64,000 nucleotides of DNA from Candidatus Nitrospira nitrificans (lineage in GTDB: Bacteria; Nitrospirota; Nitrospiria; Nitrospirales; Nitrospiraceae): NCBI RefSeq assembly GCF_001458775.1, contig NZ_CZPZ01000001.1:186001-250000 (forward strand), read 5' to 3'. The translations under genes were made by a program, and so were the position numbers. The notes under the pieces were generated by a model that made no database searches, was not told where the DNA came from, and saw nothing but the letters and a program-made list of their open reading frames with translations. Shown here in pieces: positions 1,310-63,216 of this stretch; the stretch's first letter is position 1; each line of letters starts with the position of its first letter.

Positions 1310-1371
1310 CTCGTCGTTCGTGAAGCGTATCTCGTCCTGACTTCGGACGCTTCACGCTAAACGCTTCACAC
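1310..1371. repeat. Heptad-period repeat island A (flgF-flgG gap)
   Basis: From 1314 to 1369 the sequence breaks into consecutive 7-nt units such as TGAAGCG, TTCGGAC, GCTTCAC, GCTAAAC, GCTTCAC, with an inverted unit on the left side (TGAAGCG versus CGCTTCA). The island opens with CTCGTCGTTCGT (1310-1321), a 12-mer also present in islands B and F. It fills the gap between flgF and flgG and overlaps no gene. Five further islands share the 7-nt period and orientation-inverting layout. Confidence 0.65.
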
Positions 1372-10905: not shown

Positions 10906-10916
10906 AGATTTCGTTC

Positions 10917-11022
10917 CTCGTCGTTCGTTTCTTCAATCCTAAGTTCCAGGTTTCACGTTCAAAAAACCTGAAACATGAAACTTGAAACCGTTGCCCGGTA
11001 CGTTTCACGATCCACGTTTCAC
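10917..11022. repeat. Heptad-period repeat island B (fliP-fliQ gap)
   Basis: Two tracts keep a strict 7-nt phase: CCTGAAA, CATGAAA, CTTGAAA (10967-10987) and CGTTTCA, CGATCCA, CGTTTCA (11001-11021). An inverted arm GGTTTCACGTTC lies at 10949-10960, so the left part can fold back on the GAAAC units. It begins with the shared 12-mer CTCGTCGTTCGT (10917-10928). It reaches to the fliP stop codon. Confidence 0.7.
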
Positions 11023-16892: not shown

Positions 16893-18644
16893 CTACGCCA
16901 CGACATTCAAGAGGCCATGGCGCGATGCGCGTGGGGCATCCTGTCGGTCAGGATTCTGCCCCCACTTCGTTTCGTGCGACCGCTGATTCCCGGTGTGTCC
17001 TTGTTCCTGAGAAGAGTCCTGCTGGAAAGAGCGACCGGCGCTCTGGCGATCGATGTCCACGCGGAATTGTCCCATGTCCAATCCGTTTGCCTGAAACGCC
17101 GCTTGCAGGCGATCCTGACCGCTGATGAGGAATTGCCCCACCTCAAGCCTGTCGGCGGACAAATGGGTATGCACCACATCGTTCGCCATAGCCACGCGGA
17201 TATTCACATGGCCCAGGCCGGGCTGCGCCACATCCAACACGACCGATCGCGCCATGAACCGCGCCGACGATTCAGCCGCATCATGGCCGGGCACGGACGA
17301 CGGCGCCGAACTCACGACAGGAGGAGTGGGAGGAGACGGCGGTGGACTGGAGATGACACGCCCGTGAGCGCCGGCCACCAGCGACTCGGTCGGCGATCCT
17401 CCGGAAACTTGCCGATCAATGACCGTCGGCTGCGGGAGCTTGGTCTCGCTCTGGTCGTGTGGAGGACTGTGTTGCTCACCCCAGAGCTCGCTGAAATGTT
17501 CCGCCCCATCCGCACTCGAGTGCTGCCCCTGTTGGAACCCCCACTGCGTCCTCACTCCGCTATCCTGCGCGTCGCGAAGGGATTGCGCATGCCAATTCAT
17601 CTGAGCCGGAGCCGAGCGATCGGATGAGCCTCCATCGCGCATCATGGAATCCGACTTGGAGAGAGCTGGCTTGCCGTCCGGTAACTCCATCCCCACTGAG
17701 GCAGGAGAGACCCGACGCACCATCATTTCGGGCTGAGAAGGAGTCACGCCAGGCTGCGACTCCAGAGGCACGGGGCGAGTTTCGGCACGATTCACCGTCT
17801 CGGGACCGGCATCCTCGGCAATCATGTGGGAACCCGGCTTGATGACGTGAGCCCTATGCGAATCGCCGCTGTTGGCAATCACCCGAGCGTCTGGTTCAGA
17901 AGCGGGTCGATCGAGCGGAGCGCTCCGTTCATTCTCAGGCCGAGCCTGGTCTGCCGGCAGATCAGATACCTTCACGGCCGAATTCGTCGCCCTAGGCGAT
18001 ATCAGCGGAGACTTTGAAGCACCATCGCCAGACTTGGCTTCCCGCTCGGCATCGTGATTCTCCTCGGATATATCCCCCTCGCCTTCGGTGTGAATGTTCG
18101 CCTGGGTCGGTACCTGAGGTAGAACCAGCGAGACGCCCGGCATCGAAGTTTGCTCCTGAGAGTCGCCACCTATCTGACTCGATTGAGCCGTCGCCTCCAC
18201 AGCAGTTCTGGAATCCTCAGCGCCCCTCGTTACATCGTCACCGGATCTGCCTTCCTCTTGGACCTTGGCATCAGACGATGACGCATCCGCGCGCTCAGTC
18301 TGAGTTGAGGGAGGATTCTGCTCTCGTCTTTCCATTGAGCGGGGTGCACGATCAGACCTGTTCGTTGATCGCGCCTCAGCGCGCTCCACCTGAGATGAGG
18401 AAGGATTCTGCTCTTTCGTTTCTCTCGATCGGAACCCACGATCAGACTTGGTCGTTGATCGCACGTCGTCTGCTTCCCGAGCCTCCATTCTCCGTTCATC
18501 GGCGCGAACTCCGTGGAGAACAGCGGGAAAACTCTTCCGGCTACTACTGGAGTTATGGGAAGTCGCTGCTCGAGACATTCTGGCTCCCCTATCGCCAGAG
18601 ACTTCTGACTGCTTGGGGATGATGTCGGCCAGGCTAAAATCCAT
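16893..18644 (-). CDS. fliK: FliK, hook-length control protein
   Basis: 583 aa from the ATG at 18644 (RBS GAGGA upstream); a GTG at 18698 overlaps the promoter and is unlikely. Most of the protein is hydrophilic, Ser/Glu/Arg/Pro-rich and disordered, as expected of the ruler part. The C-terminal part (about 450-560) has the Flg_hook domain: PGLGHVNIRVAMANDVVHTHLSADRLEVGQFL, LQAAFQANGLDMGQFRVDI. It contains a duplicated 30-residue unit at residues 62-121. FliK stops hook growth by triggering the FlhB switch. It is identified by the C-terminal domain and its place before flgD-flgE. Confidence 0.85.
   Translation of the reverse strand: MDFSLADIIPKQSEVSGDRGARMSRAATSHNSSSSRKSFPAVLHGVRADERRMEAREADDVRSTTKSDRGFRSRETKEQNPSSSQVERAEARSTNRSDRAPRSMERREQNPPSTQTERADASSSDAKVQEEGRSGDDVTRGAEDSRTAVEATAQSSQIGGDSQEQTSMPGVSLVLPQVPTQANIHTEGEGDISEENHDAEREAKSGDGASKSPLISPRATNSAVKVSDLPADQARPENERSAPLDRPASEPDARVIANSGDSHRAHVIKPGSHMIAEDAGPETVNRAETRPVPLESQPGVTPSQPEMMVRRVSPASVGMELPDGKPALSKSDSMMRDGGSSDRSAPAQMNWHAQSLRDAQDSGVRTQWGFQQGQHSSADGAEHFSELWGEQHSPPHDQSETKLPQPTVIDRQVSGGSPTESLVAGAHGRVISSPPPSPPTPPVVSSAPSSVPGHDAAESSARFMARSVVLDVAQPGLGHVNIRVAMANDVVHTHLSADRLEVGQFLISGQDRLQAAFQANGLDMGQFRVDIDRQSAGRSFQQDSSQEQGHTGNQRSHETKWGQNPDRQDAPRASRHGLLNVVA
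18282..18461 (-). repeat. Two-copy 90-bp tandem repeat inside fliK
   Basis: Residues 62-91 and 92-121 of FliK are a diverged duplication (shared pattern RST-SDR--RS-E---EQNP-S-Q-ERA-A). At DNA level the unit is 90 bp and in frame. Changes in copy number would alter the length of the ruler region without breaking the frame. Confidence 0.75.
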
Positions 18645-35326: not shown

Positions 35327-35351
35327 AGGTACCTCCGTTAGAACAGTTGCT

Positions 35352-35423
35352 GGTTTCACGTTTCACGTGATCAGACTCTATTCCGAAGACTCACAACTCG
35401 AAACGTGAAACACGTCCATGAAA
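35352..35423. repeat. Heptad-period repeat island C (flgB-flgC gap)
   Basis: Left units GGTTTCA, CGTTTCA, CGTGATC (35352-35372) face right units CTCGAAA, CGTGAAA (35397-35410) and CATGAAA (35417-35423), so the island is an imperfect inverted repeat with a 7-nt period on each arm. It lies between flgC and flgB. Confidence 0.65.
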
Positions 35424-35455
35424 CAGCCGGATGACCTCAGTCTGATTTTCTCTCG

Positions 35456-48690: not shown

Positions 48691-48749
48691 TGTTCCTCAG
48701 CCTTCCCCGGCCATGGAGATGCGTTTGCACCTTACCCCCAACATTCCTC

Positions 48750-49891: not shown

Positions 49892-50092
49892 GTGCAGGTC
49901 AAGATCAATGGAAAGCCCGAAGAGGTCCGGAACGGGACCATCCTCGATTTGCTGAAAACCAAGAACATCGAACCACAGATGGTCGCCGTCGAGGTCAACG
50001 ATAAGGTGCTGGACCGTGACCATTTGGCCACGACCCACCTCAACGAAGGAGATCATGTGGAGTTCCTCTTTTACATGGGAGGGGGTCGTTGA
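49892..50092 (+). CDS. ThiS-like ubiquitin-fold sulfur carrier ending GGGR
   Basis: 66 aa from the GTG at 49892 (GGGAG upstream; a TTG at 49880 is less likely). Beta-grasp pattern: VKINGKPEEVRNGTILDLLKTKNIEPQMVAVEVNDKVLDRDHLATTHLNEGDHVEFLFYMGGGR. ThiS/MoaD-type carriers need a C-terminal Gly-Gly for adenylation; here one residue, Arg, follows the GGG. The JAMM protease at 54618 could remove it, as described for CysO/Mec+ and HcyS/HcyD. The start of cysteine synthase overlaps the stop, so this is a probable carrier for cysteine synthesis. Confidence 0.9.
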   Translation: MQVKINGKPEEVRNGTILDLLKTKNIEPQMVAVEVNDKVLDRDHLATTHLNEGDHVEFLFYMGGGR

Positions 50093-51018
50093 GCACCACG
50101 TTGCATCAAGACATTACCGAGCTGATCGGCAAGACCCCGCTTGTCCGGTTAAACCGTCTTTCAAAGTCCGGTTCTGCGACGATTTACGGAAAGGTCGAGT
50201 TTTTCAACCCGGGCGGCAGTGTCAAGGATCGGATCTGCCTCAACATGATCAATGAGGCGGAACGCCGAGGAACGCTTAAGCCCGGCGGAACCATCGTTGA
50301 GCCGACCAGCGGAAACACGGGTATCGGACTGGCCTTGGTCGCAGCCGTGCGCGGGTACAAGCTGATCCTCGTGATGCCGGAAAGCATGAGCATGGAACGG
50401 GCCAGCTTGCTATCGTCGTATGGCGCCCAGCTCGTGCTCACCCCGGCTTGGGAAGGCATGAAAGGGTCCATTAAGGAGGCGGAAAGTATCTTGGCGCAAA
50501 ATCCGTCGTACTTTATGCCTGATCAATTCTCGAACCCGGCCAACCCCGCGATGCATAAAATGACGACGGCTCCGGAACTCTGGGACGCGCTCGAAGGAAA
50601 GATCGATGCCTTTGTCGCCGCCGTCGGAACCGGTGGGACCATCACAGGCTGCGGTGAAGTCTTCAAGGAACGGAATCCGCAGGTACAAATCATCGCCGTC
50701 GAACCGGCAGGCTCGCCCGTGCTGTCCGGAGGAGACCCCGGCCCCCATAAGATTCAAGGGATCGGAGCCGGCTTCATTCCTAAGGTGCTCAACCGAAAGA
50801 TCCTCGACCGCGTGATCACGGTGACGGATGACGAGGCCTATCAGACTGCGAAACAACTCTCGAAGAAAGAGGGCCTGTTGGTGGGCATTTCAGCCGGCGC
50901 CAATGTGTTCGCCGCTCAAAAGATCGCCGATGAACTGGGCCCCGGTAAGAATGTCGTGACCATACTCTGCGACACCGGCGAGCGCTATATCAGCATTGAG
51001 AAATACTTTAATATCTGA
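50089..51018 (+). CDS. Cysteine synthase (OASS-like, PLP-dependent)
   Basis: 309 aa from a TTG at 50089 that overlaps the carrier stop by 4 nt. Fold-type II PLP enzyme: K46 in PGGSVKDR, EPTSGNTGIGLALVAAVRGY, VGTGGTITG and GISAGANVFAA. It matches CysK/CysM. In the protein-bound pathway CysM-type enzymes use a thiocarboxylated carrier as sulfur donor; the preceding carrier gene and the two E1-like genes favour that pathway, though free sulfide use cannot be excluded from sequence. Followed by a heptad repeat island. Confidence 0.93.
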   Translation: MSTTLHQDITELIGKTPLVRLNRLSKSGSATIYGKVEFFNPGGSVKDRICLNMINEAERRGTLKPGGTIVEPTSGNTGIGLALVAAVRGYKLILVMPESMSMERASLLSSYGAQLVLTPAWEGMKGSIKEAESILAQNPSYFMPDQFSNPANPAMHKMTTAPELWDALEGKIDAFVAAVGTGGTITGCGEVFKERNPQVQIIAVEPAGSPVLSGGDPGPHKIQGIGAGFIPKVLNRKILDRVITVTDDEAYQTAKQLSKKEGLLVGISAGANVFAAQKIADELGPGKNVVTILCDTGERYISIEKYFNI

Positions 51019-51023
51019 AAGGC

Positions 51024-51093
51024 CGTTAATCGTTAACCGTGAACCGTTAAAGGCAGGAACGATCGATTAACGAATAACGATTAACGTTTCACG
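51024..51093. repeat. Heptad-period repeat island D (cysteine synthase - moeB gap)
   Basis: Tandem 7-nt units without break: CGTTAAT, CGTTAAC, CGTGAAC, CGTTAAA (51024-51051) and CGATTAA, CGAATAA, CGATTAA, CGTTTCA (51064-51091). The two arms point in opposite senses (TTAAC and GTTAA). The last unit, CGTTTCA, equals the unit of islands B and C, tying the TTAA-rich version to the TTTCA version. Confidence 0.75.
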
Positions 51094-51102
51094 TCTCGAT
51101 CC

Positions 51103-51921
51103 ATGGATTTTACTGAAGAACAAATCAACCGCTACAGCCGGCATATCCTATTGCCGGAGGTCGGCGGCAAGGGACAAAAGAAGATCGCCAAGTCCCGGAT
51201 TCTGCTCGTCGGCGCCGGTGGCCTCGGCTCACCAGCCGCGTTGTATTTGGCCGCGGCGGGAGTCGGCACCATCGGGTTGATCGACAGCGATGTGGTGGAC
51301 CTGACCAATCTGCAGCGCCAAGTTCTTCACCATACTTCCGACGTGGGTCGTCCCAAGGTCCTCTCCGGCAAGGAAAAGATCCAGGCATTGAACCCCGATG
51401 TCTCAGTCTCTCTGTATGAGGAACGGCTCACGGCCGGCAATGCGCTCAAGATTTTCGGCGATTATGATGTCGTGATCGACGGAGTCGATAATTTCCCAGC
51501 CAAGTTTCTGATCAACGACGCCTGTTTTTTCACCGACAAGCCGCTGGTCCATGGCGGCATTCTGCGATTCGACGGCCGTGTCACGACCATCATCCCGAAG
51601 AAATCGGCGTGCTATCGTTGCGTGTTCAAGGCGCCGCCTCCTCCTGGCCTGGTTGCCTCCTGCCAGGAAGCCGGAGTGATCGGCGTCTTGGCAGGGATTA
51701 TCGGGACGATTCAGGCGACGGAAGCATTGAAGCTTGTCCTCGGTATCGGACGGCCGCTGACAGACCGCCTGCTCGACTTCGATGCGCGCAAAACCCAATT
51801 TCGAGAAATCAAAGTCCGCCGCAACCCGAATTGCGCGCTCTGCGGAGAACATCCGACGATTACCGAACTGTTCGACGATGGGGACCCCTATGCCGGATGC
51901 GCCATGCGTCCATCTGCATAG
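51103..51921 (+). CDS. MoeB/ThiF-family E1-like adenylyltransferase 1
   Basis: 272 aa. N-terminal YSRHILLPEVGGKGQ, nucleotide-binding VGAGGLGSPAALYLAAAG, DSDVVDLTNLQRQ, zinc ligands C170/C173 and C244/C247, and the active-site Cys187 in SCQEAGVIGVLAG. It adenylates the C-terminal glycine of a sulfur carrier, and may form an acyl-disulfide with it. About 60 percent similar by eye to the second copy at 53805. It lies 85 nt after cysteine synthase. Confidence 0.92.
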   Translation: MDFTEEQINRYSRHILLPEVGGKGQKKIAKSRILLVGAGGLGSPAALYLAAAGVGTIGLIDSDVVDLTNLQRQVLHHTSDVGRPKVLSGKEKIQALNPDVSVSLYEERLTAGNALKIFGDYDVVIDGVDNFPAKFLINDACFFTDKPLVHGGILRFDGRVTTIIPKKSACYRCVFKAPPPPGLVASCQEAGVIGVLAGIIGTIQATEALKLVLGIGRPLTDRLLDFDARKTQFREIKVRRNPNCALCGEHPTITELFDDGDPYAGCAMRPSA

Positions 51922-51943
51922 AGTTTGAGAAGGTGATGTGACC

Positions 51944-53191
51944 ATGAACAAAATGAAAGCGCTGGTATGCCGCGAGTGCGGCAAGGAATATCCGACGAAG
52001 GCGATCCACGTCTGCGAAATGTGCTTCGGTCCCCTTGAGGTGAAGTACAACTACGACGAGATCAAGAAGACTATTTCTCGTAAGAAAATCGAGGATGGAC
52101 CGCACAGCATGTGGCGCTATCTTGACCTGCTGCCGGTCGAAGGCACGAACTTCGTGGGGCCGCATGCCGGGTTCACCCCGCTCGTACGGGCGAAGAACCT
52201 TGGCGCCTATCTTGGCCTCGACGAGCTCTACATCAAGAACGACACGGTGAATCACCCCACCCTCTCCTTCAAAGATCGCGTCGTCGCCGTGGCGCTCACG
52301 CGCGCGCGCGAGCTCGGCTTCGAAACGGTGGCCTGCGCGTCGACCGGCAACCTGGCGAATTCCGTCGCCGCGCACGCGGCATCCGCCAATCTCCACTGCT
52401 ACGTCTTCATCCCCGGCGACCTTGAGGCCGCAAAGGTGCTCGGCAATCTGATCTATAAACCGCACGTGGTCGAGATTGAAGGTAATTACGACGACGTCAA
52501 CCGTCTCTGCAGCGAGATTGCCGGTGAACATGGCTGGGCGTTCGTGAACATCAACATCCGTCCCTACTATGCGGAAGGCTCCAAGACCCTTGCCTTCGAG
52601 ACCGTGGAGCAACTGGGATGGAAAACTCCGGATCAAGTCGTCATTCCCATGGCGTCGGGCTCGCTCTTGACGAAGATTTGGAAGGGCCTGCATGAGATGA
52701 AGGCCTTGGGCCTGATCGACCACGTTCGTACGAAGATCAACGGCGCCCAAGCGGAAGGCTGCTCACCGATTTCGACCGCATTCAAGGCGGGACGCGACTT
52801 CTTCAAGCCGGTGAAACCACAGACGATTGCCAAGTCGCTGGCCATCGGCAACCCTGCCGATGGGTACTATGCGCTCAAGGCGACCGCCGAGAGTCATGGC
52901 GCCATGGATATGGTGACGGATGAAGAAGTGGTGGAAGGCATCCAGCTGCTGGCCCAAACCGAGGGCATCTTCGCGGAAACAGCCGGCGGCGTCACGATCG
53001 GCGTGCTCAAGAAACTCGTCAAGCAAGGGGTGATTAAACAAGATGAGGTTACAGTGGCCTATGTGACCGGCAACGGCCTAAAGACCCAGGAAGCGGTGAT
53101 CGATTCCGTCGGTCGCCCAGTCCGCATTCAGCCCAGCCTGGTGGACTTCGAAAAGACGTTTAAGATGGGAAAGAACGGTGGTGGCGCATGA
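51944..53191 (+). CDS. thrC: Threonine synthase
   Basis: 415 aa from the ATG at 51944; a GTG at 51938 is an alternative, and GAAGGTGA precedes both. N-terminal zinc ribbon CRECGKEYP...CEMCFGPLEV, PLP-Lys in HPTLSFKDRV, and the fold-type II glycine-loop ASTGNLANSVAAHAASA. It converts O-phosphohomoserine to threonine. The zinc ribbon type is found in long threonine synthases. Embedded between the E1-like gene and a second sulfur carrier, so it may have an alternative sulfur-linked role; that is speculation. Overlaps the next gene by 4 nt. Confidence 0.9.
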   Translation: MNKMKALVCRECGKEYPTKAIHVCEMCFGPLEVKYNYDEIKKTISRKKIEDGPHSMWRYLDLLPVEGTNFVGPHAGFTPLVRAKNLGAYLGLDELYIKNDTVNHPTLSFKDRVVAVALTRARELGFETVACASTGNLANSVAAHAASANLHCYVFIPGDLEAAKVLGNLIYKPHVVEIEGNYDDVNRLCSEIAGEHGWAFVNINIRPYYAEGSKTLAFETVEQLGWKTPDQVVIPMASGSLLTKIWKGLHEMKALGLIDHVRTKINGAQAEGCSPISTAFKAGRDFFKPVKPQTIAKSLAIGNPADGYYALKATAESHGAMDMVTDEEVVEGIQLLAQTEGIFAETAGGVTIGVLKKLVKQGVIKQDEVTVAYVTGNGLKTQEAVIDSVGRPVRIQPSLVDFEKTFKMGKNGGGA

Positions 53192-53460
53192 TTACAGTTC
53201 GCATTCCGACTCCACTTCGCCCCCTGACCAAAGGTCAGGGCGAGGTCGAGACCAAAGCCGACAGCGTGGTGGCGATGATCGACGCGTTGAACAGCGCCTA
53301 TCCCGGCATCAAAGACCGCCTGTGCGATGAAACGGGAGAGCTCCGTCGCTTCGTGAACATGTATGTCAACGAAGAAGACATTCGCTTTCTGAAAGGGAAG
53401 GAGACCTCCCTCAAGGATGGCGATGAAGTCTCCATCGTCCCGGCGATCGCGGGAGGGTAG
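53188..53460 (+). CDS. MoaD/ThiS-like ubiquitin-fold sulfur carrier ending GG
   Basis: 90 aa. Starts ITVRIPTPLRPLTKGQGEVETKADSVVAMIDALN, MoaD/ThiS2 pattern, and ends DGDEVSIVPAIAGG, with the C-terminal Gly-Gly free and ready for adenylation. Its ATG overlaps the threonine synthase stop (ATGA). It is the second carrier in the cluster, distinct in sequence from the first, so the two E1-like proteins may be dedicated to one carrier each. Confidence 0.9.
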   Translation: MITVRIPTPLRPLTKGQGEVETKADSVVAMIDALNSAYPGIKDRLCDETGELRRFVNMYVNEEDIRFLKGKETSLKDGDEVSIVPAIAGG

Positions 53461-53462
53461 CC

Positions 53463-53702
53463 ATGGCACACTTGCGATTCCATATTCGCTTTCCCGAAGA
53501 CAAAATCCGAGAGCCGATCATCTATCAGATCGGGCGCGAGTATAACGTCGTGACCGATGTCAGACGAGCCGATGTCCGCGAGACGACCGGATGGGCCGAT
53601 GTGGAACTCTCCGGCGACACTGCCGAGATCGAGCGGGCCGTCGCCGGACTGCGAGCCAAAGGCTGCGTCGTCGATCCGATTGAATTGAATGTGGTGGAAT
53701 GA
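53463..53702 (+). CDS. NIL-domain protein
   Basis: 79 aa, the NIL domain alone (LRFHIRFPEDKIREPIIYQIGREYNVVTDVRRADVRETTGWADVELSGDTAEIERAVAGLRAKGCVVDPIEL). NIL domains are best known at the C-terminus of MetN/NatA methionine importers and in sulfur-related proteins. It starts 2 nt after the carrier and so is coexpressed. Its presence fits a sulfur amino-acid theme. Confidence 0.85.
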   Translation: MAHLRFHIRFPEDKIREPIIYQIGREYNVVTDVRRADVRETTGWADVELSGDTAEIERAVAGLRAKGCVVDPIELNVVE

Positions 53703-53725
53703 CAGAACGTGAAGCGCACCTAGGC

Positions 53726-53795
53726 AGTTTCGGGTTCAAGGTTTCTTGTTTCATGTTCGAACTTGAAACCTGAAACTTGTCACTAGAAACTCGCA
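53726..53795. repeat. Heptad-period repeat island E (NIL - moeB2 gap)
   Basis: Ten consecutive 7-nt units in one phase: AGTTTCG, GGTTCAA, GGTTTCT, TGTTTCA, TGTTCGA, ACTTGAA, ACCTGAA, ACTTGTC, ACTAGAA, ACTCGCA. The left five read GTTTC, the right five read GAA, so the whole folds into an imperfect hairpin. It occupies almost the entire gap. Confidence 0.8.
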
Positions 53796-53804
53796 AGCGA
53801 CACA

Positions 53805-54608
53805 ATGGAACTCACCGAACAAGAAATCGAACGGTACAGTCGGCACATTATCCTCCAGGACGTGGGAGGCAAGGGGCAACTCAAGCTCAAGCGGGCCAAG
53901 GTCCTCCTCATCGGCGCGGGGGGTCTCGGCTCTCCTGCCGGGCTCTATCTTGCCGCCGCCGGCATCGGAACAATCGGGCTTGTCGACGGCGATGTCGTAG
54001 ACCTCTCAAATTTGCAACGACAGATCATGCACTCGACCGCCACGCTCGGGCAGCCCAAGGTCGAGTCCGGACGGAAAACCTTGTCGGCCATTAACCCTGA
54101 AATTACGATCAACGCGTACCATCAGCTCGTCGATGCCGAGAACATTCTCCCGCTCGTCTCCCAGTATGACATCGTGCTGGACGGATCGGACAATTTCACG
54201 ACGCGGTTTCTGGTGAACGACGCCTGTTTCTTTGCCAAGAAAACATTGATCTCCGCCAGCATGTTTCGATTCGAGGGGCAGCTGACGTCGATCAAGCCGC
54301 ACCAAGGCTATCCCTGCTATCGATGCCTCTATCCCGAACCTCCGCCGGCCGGGCTGGTCCCCAATTGCCAAGAAGCCGGCGTGCTTGGCGTTTTGGCCGG
54401 CACGATGGGGGTTCTCCAGGCCTCGGAAGCGATCAAGGAAATCCTGGGCATCGGCGAAACGATCGCCGATAAATTGTTGATCTACGATGCGCTCGAGATG
54501 AAGTTCCGAAAGGTCGGCCGGCCCAAAGATCCTGCCTGCCCGCTCTGCGGGCCACATCCCAAGATCAAGGATTTGAGCCTGGATTATGCCGTCAGCTGCA
54601 CCATCTAG
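53805..54608 (+). CDS. moeB: MoeB/ThiF-family E1-like adenylyltransferase 2
   Basis: 267 aa. IGAGGLGSPAGLYLAAAG nucleotide-binding motif, VDGDVVDLSNLQRQ, zinc ligands C171/C174 and C245/C248, active-site Cys188 in NCQEAGVLGVLAG. A paralogue of the protein at 51103. It sits between the NIL gene and the JAMM protease gene, 9 nt upstream of the latter. Molybdopterin synthesis (MoeB) is a possible alternative to a dedicated cysteine pathway role. Confidence 0.92.
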   Translation: MELTEQEIERYSRHIILQDVGGKGQLKLKRAKVLLIGAGGLGSPAGLYLAAAGIGTIGLVDGDVVDLSNLQRQIMHSTATLGQPKVESGRKTLSAINPEITINAYHQLVDAENILPLVSQYDIVLDGSDNFTTRFLVNDACFFAKKTLISASMFRFEGQLTSIKPHQGYPCYRCLYPEPPPAGLVPNCQEAGVLGVLAGTMGVLQASEAIKEILGIGETIADKLLIYDALEMKFRKVGRPKDPACPLCGPHPKIKDLSLDYAVSCTI

Positions 54609-54617
54609 TGGACCATC

Positions 54618-55127
54618 GTGGCTGACTTAGTCATTCCACAACCCATCCTCGACGACATTATCGCCCATGCGAAGGAGCTCGCGCCATACGAGTGTTGCGG
54701 GCTTCTAGCGGGAACCGATGGTGTGGTCAGCCGCATCTATCGTATCAAGAACATCGTCGCGATGGAGGGGGCGCACAACCTGTCGTCCTTCGACTCGGCA
54801 AAAGCCGCGCATCTCGAGCGGCTCTCGCCCGCGGAACGGGCTGAAATCGCCTTCGTGATGGACATGCAGGACTTCTCCACCGCCAAGAAAGACATGCGCA
54901 ACAATGGACTCGATCTTCAAGTCGTCTACCACTCGCATCCACACGACCCGGCCCGTCCCTCCGTCACCGACATCAAAATCGCCACCGACTACGAAGAGAT
55001 CTGGCCCAAGATCAACCTGCCCCTTCCCGCCTATCTCCTGGTCTCGCTCATGCATTCGGAACCGGACGTGAAGACCTATTGGATCAAATCCGGCCGGGTC
55101 ACGCCCGCAGACGTTCTCATTCGCTAA
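54618..55127 (+). CDS. JAMM/MPN+ metalloprotease (M67, Mec-like)
   Basis: 169 aa from a GTG at 54618. JAMM zinc motif is complete: E25 in PYECCGLL, H105-S-H107-P, S115 and D118 (HSHPHDPARPSVTD). Mec+/HcyD-type JAMM proteases remove residues after the Gly-Gly of a sulfur carrier or release cysteine from it. In this cluster the obvious substrate is the GGGR-ending carrier at 49892. It is 9 nt after the E1-like gene. Confidence 0.92.
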   Translation: MADLVIPQPILDDIIAHAKELAPYECCGLLAGTDGVVSRIYRIKNIVAMEGAHNLSSFDSAKAAHLERLSPAERAEIAFVMDMQDFSTAKKDMRNNGLDLQVVYHSHPHDPARPSVTDIKIATDYEEIWPKINLPLPAYLLVSLMHSEPDVKTYWIKSGRVTPADVLIR

Positions 55128-63069: not shown

Positions 63070-63077
63070 ATGCGTCG

Positions 63078-63212
63078 CTCGTCGTTCGTATCTCGGGATC
63101 CGGAGTTTCAGGTGGCTAATTTCATGTTTCACGTTGCATAAGAGGATCATTCCCAACCTGAAACGAGAAACCTGGAACTCGAAACCTAGCAGCAAAATAC
63201 GTTTCACAGAAA
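63078..63212. repeat. Heptad-period repeat island F (between helicase halves)
   Basis: From 63104 the sequence reads in 7-nt units: AGTTTCA, GGTGGCT, AATTTCA, TGTTTCA, CGTTGCA ... GAAACGA, GAAACCT, GGAACTC, GAAACCT ... TTTCACA. The left arm contains TTTCA, the right arm GAAAC, so it can fold. It opens with the shared 12-mer CTCGTCGTTCGT (63078-63089). Confidence 0.7.
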
Positions 63213-63216
63213 CAAG

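Follow-up and report, generated by a model that had tools for sequence, protein, structure and literature searches.

Heptamer repeats have been noted in bacteria for years and, to our knowledge, their cause has not been agreed upon. Among the described systems, heptameric intergenic repeats with the words GGGNATC and GGGGA(T/C)T exist in Xanthomonas and Nostoc, respectively; 186 heptameric repeats were counted in all in Xcc, with inverted pairs in 70 cases and a bias to sites just behind stop codons (PMC4692102). Heptanucleotides of Calothrix are mentioned in the same source (PMC4692102). Repeats of TAACTGA are distributed in Beggiatoaceae, Cyanobacteria, and some Bacteroidetes (PMC4679880). 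For Geobacter metallireducens, a further source presents heptanucleotide elements consisting of four tandem GGGACCG or five MTYCTGA (PMC2700814). The islands analyzed in this paper are dispersed elements of 60-150 nt that belong to several families. Both of their arms are made of 7-nt words, in which some positions are fixed and others free.

The window, which is the whole 64,000-nt stretch of DNA under analysis, had been described in a first-pass annotation as containing six such islands between codirectional genes. All 6 were confirmed by gene calls from a hexamer model, for which long ORFs of the source genome served as the training set, and the gaps holding them are 1292-1373, 10906-11018, 35327-35455, 51019-51102, 53703-53804, and 63070-63216. 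The lag-7 autocorrelation check suggested by the annotation was run on 464 kb of the source genome (the 64-kb window plus 400 kb; 550 kb were used for parts of the statistics). Intergenic self-match at lag 7 was 0.283, compared to 0.2545±0.0017 in dinucleotide shuffles (z 16.9; 207 gaps, 32.8 kb). Lags 14 and 21 were also raised in intergenic DNA of this sample (z 9.5 and 7.4), all remaining lags showed |z|<4, and the lag-7 self-match of coding DNA, 0.2475, was not raised. A maximal-segment score of at least 8 at lag 7 was reached in 44 gaps against 1.6 expected, with most other lags giving 2-10. It can be seen that, as in heptameric intergenic repeats, the period lies above chance outside coding DNA only. 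Since a lack of excess over shuffled intergenic DNA was the result held to speak against the period, the claim stands. The strongest islands in the window have lag-7 scores of 24.3 (at 51024), 20.7 (53727), and 20.3 (10911), and the weaker ones 9.8 (at 35346), 9.3 (1347), and 9.1 (63073). The 7-nt period had been called strict; this is accurate within one arm and fails across a whole island, because the loop breaks the phase. Figures for the whole genome are pattern counts with the same pattern read backwards as control: TTTCANGTTTCANGTTT with at most 2 mismatches gave 222 matches, compared to 3 for the backwards pattern. Elsewhere in the window, Tandem Repeats Finder reported a 90-nt unit at 18282-18462 in two tandem copies with 78% match.

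The dominant word of the source genome is GTTTCAN (T1), in which N is essentially free. Among 167 T1 units, 165 have the G and 166 the second T, and N was distributed as A61, G48, C30, and T28. The words of other families are GTGAAGC/GTATCTC (T3), GTNAGGN (T4), GTNAANC (T5), GTGATNA (T7), and CAGCNNT (T8). The earlier statement that left-arm units are the reverse complement of right-arm units is true word by word, and does not extend base for base to the free N. Period 7 is not strict in the T2 (GCTGACA) hairpins. In G034, G066, G079, and G063, hairpins of the type GCTGACA ... TGTCAGC with 8- or 9-nt spacing occupy the same gaps; therefore, not every swapped hairpin follows period 7. Hairpins with a 6-nt period (GTTGAG/GTTAAG ... 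CCTTAACCTCAA) were also observed in G010, G024, and G059, in the gap orthologous to window positions 48691-48749, an otherwise similar operon gap.

Different families and combinations are represented by the six islands. The island at 1310..1371 on the minus strand is of T3 type by lag 7 and 12-mer count, with the words GTGAAGC, GTATCTC, and GCTTCAC and the outer 12-mer CTCGTCGTTCGT. This 12-mer, noted earlier as common to three islands, occurs exactly three times (1310, 10917, and 63078) against 0.01 expected. A near full-length composite element, with T3-type outer ends around a T1 hairpin, is located at 10911..11018 on the minus strand (nhmmer E 3.7e-34; one of the 8 seeds of the profile below). 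Lag 7 also marks the T1 hairpin at 35346..35423 on the minus strand, which has a long loop (GTTTCACGTTTCACGT ... ACTCGAAACGTGAAAC). On the plus strand, the gap 51019..51102 between PALP and ThiF genes holds a T5 island with the words GTTAATC, GTTAACC, and GTGAACC, identified by lag 7 and by a near-identical T5 island in G001. Another composite island at 63078..63212 on the plus strand, consisting of the T3 end CTCGTCGTTCGT, a T1 hairpin, and the end ACGTTTCAC (nhmmer E 5.9e-10), precedes a DEAD-box helicase gene (Pfam).

The island at 53703..53804 on the plus strand fills the whole gap from the stop of a NIL-domain gene to the start of a ThiF/MoeB-like gene. Comparison with relatives indicates that a T1 core is nested in the remnants of a T3 island. 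The left T1 arm with GTTTCAN-type units (53727..53756; lag-7 score as above) forms a stem in the RNA fold, the hairpin tip TTCGAA lies at 53756..53761 by sequence and fold, and the right arm with TGAAACN-type units follows at 53762..53789, as indicated by lag 7, the fold, and a copy of about 91% identity in a different gap of G081. The left T3 remnant ACGTGAAGCGCACC (53707..53720) is identical in the T3 island of G015 at the same gap, so that the outer ends here still match that island, and the right T3 remnant CTCGCAAGCGACACA (53790..53804) resembles the T3 ends GAGCGACACA of G010; all these parts are on the plus strand. The surrounding operon at window positions 50089-55127 encodes PALP (cysteine synthase-like), ThiF, PALP (threonine synthase-like), ThiS, a NIL domain, ThiF, and a JAB protease. 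From the matched Pfam families, with function names assigned by inference, it resembles a sulfur-carrier cysteine/threonine pathway of the CysO/Mec+ type.

The comparison with relatives for presence and absence, also proposed earlier, gave an unexpected outcome, as unrelated heptad words were found in the same gap across species. In 30 species of the genus, the gap 53703-53804 is 2 nt long in 5, about 35-41 nt in 4, and non-heptad in 1, and the hairpin of one of eight word families is present in 20 (T1 2, T2 5, T3 3, T4 4, T5 2, T6 1, T7 1, and T8 2; family names in the gap surveys were assigned by eye from the words). Similarly, in 19 genomes the gap 51019-51102 holds T5 in 2, T3 in 4, T4, T8, and T7 in 2 each, and T1 and T2 in 1 each; the remaining genomes have a palindromic non-heptad element (3), other sequence (1), or 14 nt (1). 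Even very near relatives differ. G063 and G066, with flanks 97.8/95.3% identical, hold T3 versus a palindromic (MITE) element in the same gap, and G019 and G063, with flanks 97.3/94.5% identical, hold T1 versus T2, compared to ordinary non-island gaps that are 86-94% identical between such near pairs. Family sharing in a gap did not track flank similarity, so the swap is not simply an exchange of large alleles, and exchange of flanking gene alleles was rejected on this ground. Islands of the same family can also be more alike than their coding flanks, as in T5 between G000, the source genome, and G001 (91% versus 85-88%) and T3 between G010 and G082 (92% versus 83-84%). Several changes in island length are exactly 7 or 14 nt. 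Of the suggestion that the islands are integration sites, what remains is that whole elements come and go in these gaps.

The palindromic non-heptad element, 138-151 nt long with the core CAACGTACC..GGGTACG, fills the gap orthologous to 51019-51102 in G019, G066, and G011. G061 reads GAACGCTGATTAAG where G066 reads GAACGCTGA, an insert, and CGCTGATTAAG, and this difference looks like an insertion with duplication of CGCTGA. Related copies were observed in the gap after window position 54608 in G012, G034, G061, and G059.

The islands also exist as dispersed copies within and between genomes. A profile built from 8 composite elements found 63 matches at E<1e-3 in 550 kb of the source genome, a number that includes the seeds and counts matches to the two strands of one hairpin separately. 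The consensus order is CGTCGTTCGT ... GATCCTGAGTT, a T1 arm, the loop GTGCAGAAACCAAAACC, a T1 arm, and CCGTTGGCCGATACGCTTCACGA, and many T1 islands have this loop (GTGCAGAAACCAAAACC) and these outer ends (CGTCGTTCGT; CCGTTGGCCGATACGCTTCACGA) in common. In the window, the profile matched 10911-11018, 63078-63212, and 53703-53804. The 12-mer CTCGTCGTTCGT is the outer end of the composite and is itself T3-type sequence; T1 hairpins thus sit inside T3 islands. Alignments of copies from different species extend over about 110 nt and reach 83-88%, with loops and flanks included, and most pairwise identities of T1 copies are only 75-85%, partly because the words are common to copies. Among 48 homologous copy pairs, mismatch was 8.5% in words (lowered by the definition of a unit, for which each of the two copies had to show 4 or more of the 6 letters), 18% in loop and flank, and 48% at N. 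Turnover of units or alignments out of register may have raised the value at N. The 53703 island of the source genome is 91% identical over 69 nt, and 89% over 80 nt, to sequence in the 51019 gap of G081, a value above the 79-86% of the coding flanks of these two genomes. Read from the alignments, the closest relative of this island of the source genome is thus located in the other gap of G081, which is a move between loci. Short intergenic hairpins in many dispersed homologous copies, as in REP/BIME, were therefore found, together with presence/absence and non-orthologous copies between near relatives, as in the mobility of the MITE type.

The distribution of families was surveyed in 59 genomes of the genus, where backwards controls were near zero in nearly all, with the exception of G080 for T4. 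Each family is plentiful in some lineages and almost absent in others: T1 matches number 158 in G081, about 108-115 in G000, G006, and G011, and 0-2 in many species, and peak counts for other families are 112 for T3 (G021), 102 for T4 (G017), and 41 for T8 (G005). T1 is essentially absent in other families of the order. Beyond it, public genomes contain at least 120 stretches with the exact four-unit T1 pattern, some of them from Flavobacterium, Bacteroidales, Acidobacteria, Desulfobacterales, Verrucomicrobia, Anaerolineae, and Planctomycetes. The loci with this pattern also carry other heptad arrays (433 at lag 7 versus 98 at lag 8). Long homogeneous arrays of GTTTCAG or GTTTCAA were observed in Flavobacterium, Kiritimatiellae, and Rhodopirellula, and arrays of further heptads, such as CACGCAT, AATTAAC, and GTGATAA, at other loci of the same public set.

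The explanation that we favor, at slightly better than even odds (about 0.55), is that the islands are non-autonomous hairpin elements of a REP/MITE-like kind, which insert copies of themselves in operon gaps and displace each other. According to this explanation, codirectional gene pairs would tolerate such copies in the gaps between them, and the elements would grow or shrink by whole words, about 7 or 14 nt at a time. Elements of other families would then replace the residents, sometimes nesting inside an island that was there before. Cells would contain them as hairpins in intercistronic mRNA, and their effect on the stability of operon mRNA or on translational coupling is probably mild or interchangeable. 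The periodicity, the dispersed homologous copies, the fast wholesale replacement, the conservation of words above loops, and the free N are direct observations. Gap contents thus seem to arrive and to be exchanged as whole units instead of changing by slow mutation, and transposition or ectopic conversion is the probable route of copying. That words are conserved above loops points to their being recognized, probably by the copying machinery or else by a cellular binding protein. No target-site duplication or mobilizing enzyme was found for the heptad families; islands usually span the gap from stop to start with no flanking non-coding DNA, and for this reason the ends of an insertion cannot be defined. 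The occurrence of GTTTCAN in many phyla would require independent births or very wide transfer, which counts against this explanation, as does the low identity of most T1 copy pairs.

An unlikely explanation, and the one that survives best among the others, is that the arrays are born in place by 7-nt polymerase slippage, folded into inverted arms by quasi-palindrome template switching, and otherwise neutral. Bacteria have an excess of heptameric SSRs, for which a proposed cause is slippage over a polymerase contact of 7 nt (PMC4692102). The indels of 7 and 14 nt also agree with it, and at loci of other phyla with GTTTCAN, adjacent N are homogenized (z 20) and N-N' across the arms are complementary in 32 versus 20, as slippage and copying predict. 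The source genome gives the opposite picture, in which adjacent units have the same N in 12 cases versus 16.5 expected, with no excess, and neighboring units are not alike at every position as in a slippage-grown tandem array. Pairing of N with N' across the arms is at chance as well (17 versus 17.6 expected). Since N neither pairs across arms nor matches its neighbors beyond chance, neither recent slippage nor selection for base-perfect hairpins has left a sign here, and the latter was rejected on the chance-level pairing. Further points against slippage are that homologous copies found in many gaps and species have one loop in common, and that whole gap contents are swapped between near relatives.

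Alternatively, the words could be sites for a DNA- or RNA-binding protein in 7-nt steps, with an array of any word kept by selection in certain operon gaps. The fixed and free positions of the unit, the conservation of words above loops, and the refilling of the same gaps with similar hairpins would fit such arrays, and CspB can bind heptamer direct repeats (discussed in PMC4679880). Nevertheless, the words of different families in one gap are wholly different, several species have no island there, and the abundance of a family ranges from about 0 to more than 100. This is unlike an essential site for one protein, and the explanation is regarded as quite improbable.

Selection of intercistronic RNA hairpins for mRNA stability or translation decoupling, with the sequence irrelevant, is more doubtful again. 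Island gaps fold strongly compared to shuffles (mean z -2.35, versus -0.28 for non-island gaps, p=1e-14), and also more stably than shuffles of 7-nt blocks (mean z -1.28). The position of islands is in agreement with this role: in the wider sample an island was present in 64 of 386 gaps between codirectional genes, compared to 3 of 31 convergent gaps and 1 of 44 divergent gaps, the last being gaps that should hold promoters. The median distance in codirectional gaps is 8.5 nt from the stop to the island and 19.5 nt from the island to the next start. Against it, the free N is uncompensated across arms, orthologous gaps are only 2 nt long in several species, and the 7-nt period is left unexplained. 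The attenuation role proposed in the first-pass annotation, like a role in termination, received no support, as no terminator-like site (GC stem then T-run) was present in the islands 51019-51102 and 53703-53804 and no Rfam match at gathering score in the 64-kb window. A stop-codon barrier, in which each word would supply TAA, TGA, or TAG and the 7-nt step would close all frames, was also rejected: 385 stops were counted versus 362±20 with unit positions permuted, so stop triplets do not exceed word composition and the role is not supported.

Mobilization by a Y1 transposase, as in a RAYT/REP system, has very little chance of being correct and was rejected, since its support from short dispersed intergenic hairpins and Y1 proteins in the genus is outweighed by the lack of adjacency, as none of 30 Y1 loci examined had a heptad island close by and no cognate Y1 transposase was flanked by copies there, and by the lack of correlation with T1 abundance (108 T1 matches and one Y1 gene in G000; 6 T1 matches and 11 Y1 matches in G012).

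A further and rather improbable possibility would be a bacterial machinery, so far undescribed, that recognizes or writes 7-nt words (six fixed and one free nucleotide in GTTTCAN) and spreads hairpins through operon gaps. The families would be modules that can stand in for each other functionally, and many phyla would have this machinery or a relative of it. In the extreme form, by analogy with telomere-type repeats, the machinery might synthesize word after word from a template and leave one nucleotide loose every time. Such a machinery would explain the recurrence of GTTTCAN hairpins in Flavobacterium, Acidobacteria, Desulfobacterales, and others.

These findings suggest that the heptamer repeats of one genus are swappable hairpin elements, not slowly decaying microsatellites. 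Two operon gaps hold at least 6 unrelated heptad families across species with neighboring genes barely changed, and the swaps give natural before/after pairs for mobility, the copying enzyme, and the effect on operon expression. They are also a warning that intergenic hairpins, even when they change fast, can look like a conserved regulatory structure.

Compared to known systems, the islands are similar to REP/BIME and MITE in being short non-coding intergenic hairpins with many dispersed copies and lineage bursts of families, and differ in having arms of 7-nt words, no link to a Y1 transposase, and no target duplication found. Several heptad words per genome are likewise reported for Geobacter metallireducens, with 49 copies of one element; in the excerpt of that source, the elements are putative regulatory sites and no replacement between species at fixed gaps is described (PMC2700814). 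TAACTGA repeats are also intergenic heptamers across distant phyla and are mixed with other heptamers in Microcystis, but they are direct, lie upstream of start codons with one inverted case only, and the related heptamers are rarely repeated (PMC4679880). The STRR of cyanobacteria are tandem heptanucleotides between genes as well. The islands had been set apart from them earlier, and correctly, since they consist of two inverted arms of words with fixed and free positions, with a loop and outer ends, dispersed as copies; they had also been called degenerate, a description to be replaced by membership in families of dispersed elements. A further likeness is to the repeats of Xanthomonas and Nostoc, which also have a 7-nt unit with fixed and free positions, many intergenic copies, inverted pairs, and a post-stop bias, but which use one G-rich word at genomic locations conserved between two species (PMC4692102). 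The islands, in contrast, have many word families per genome, hairpins with defined loops, and gaps refilled by other families. In the literature searched, which covered few subscription journals, no description was found of GTTTCAN hairpins, of interchangeable heptad families in one genome, or of replacement at fixed gaps. Heptameric intergenic repeats are already known, and hairpins built of words and swapped at fixed gaps are what appears to be new.
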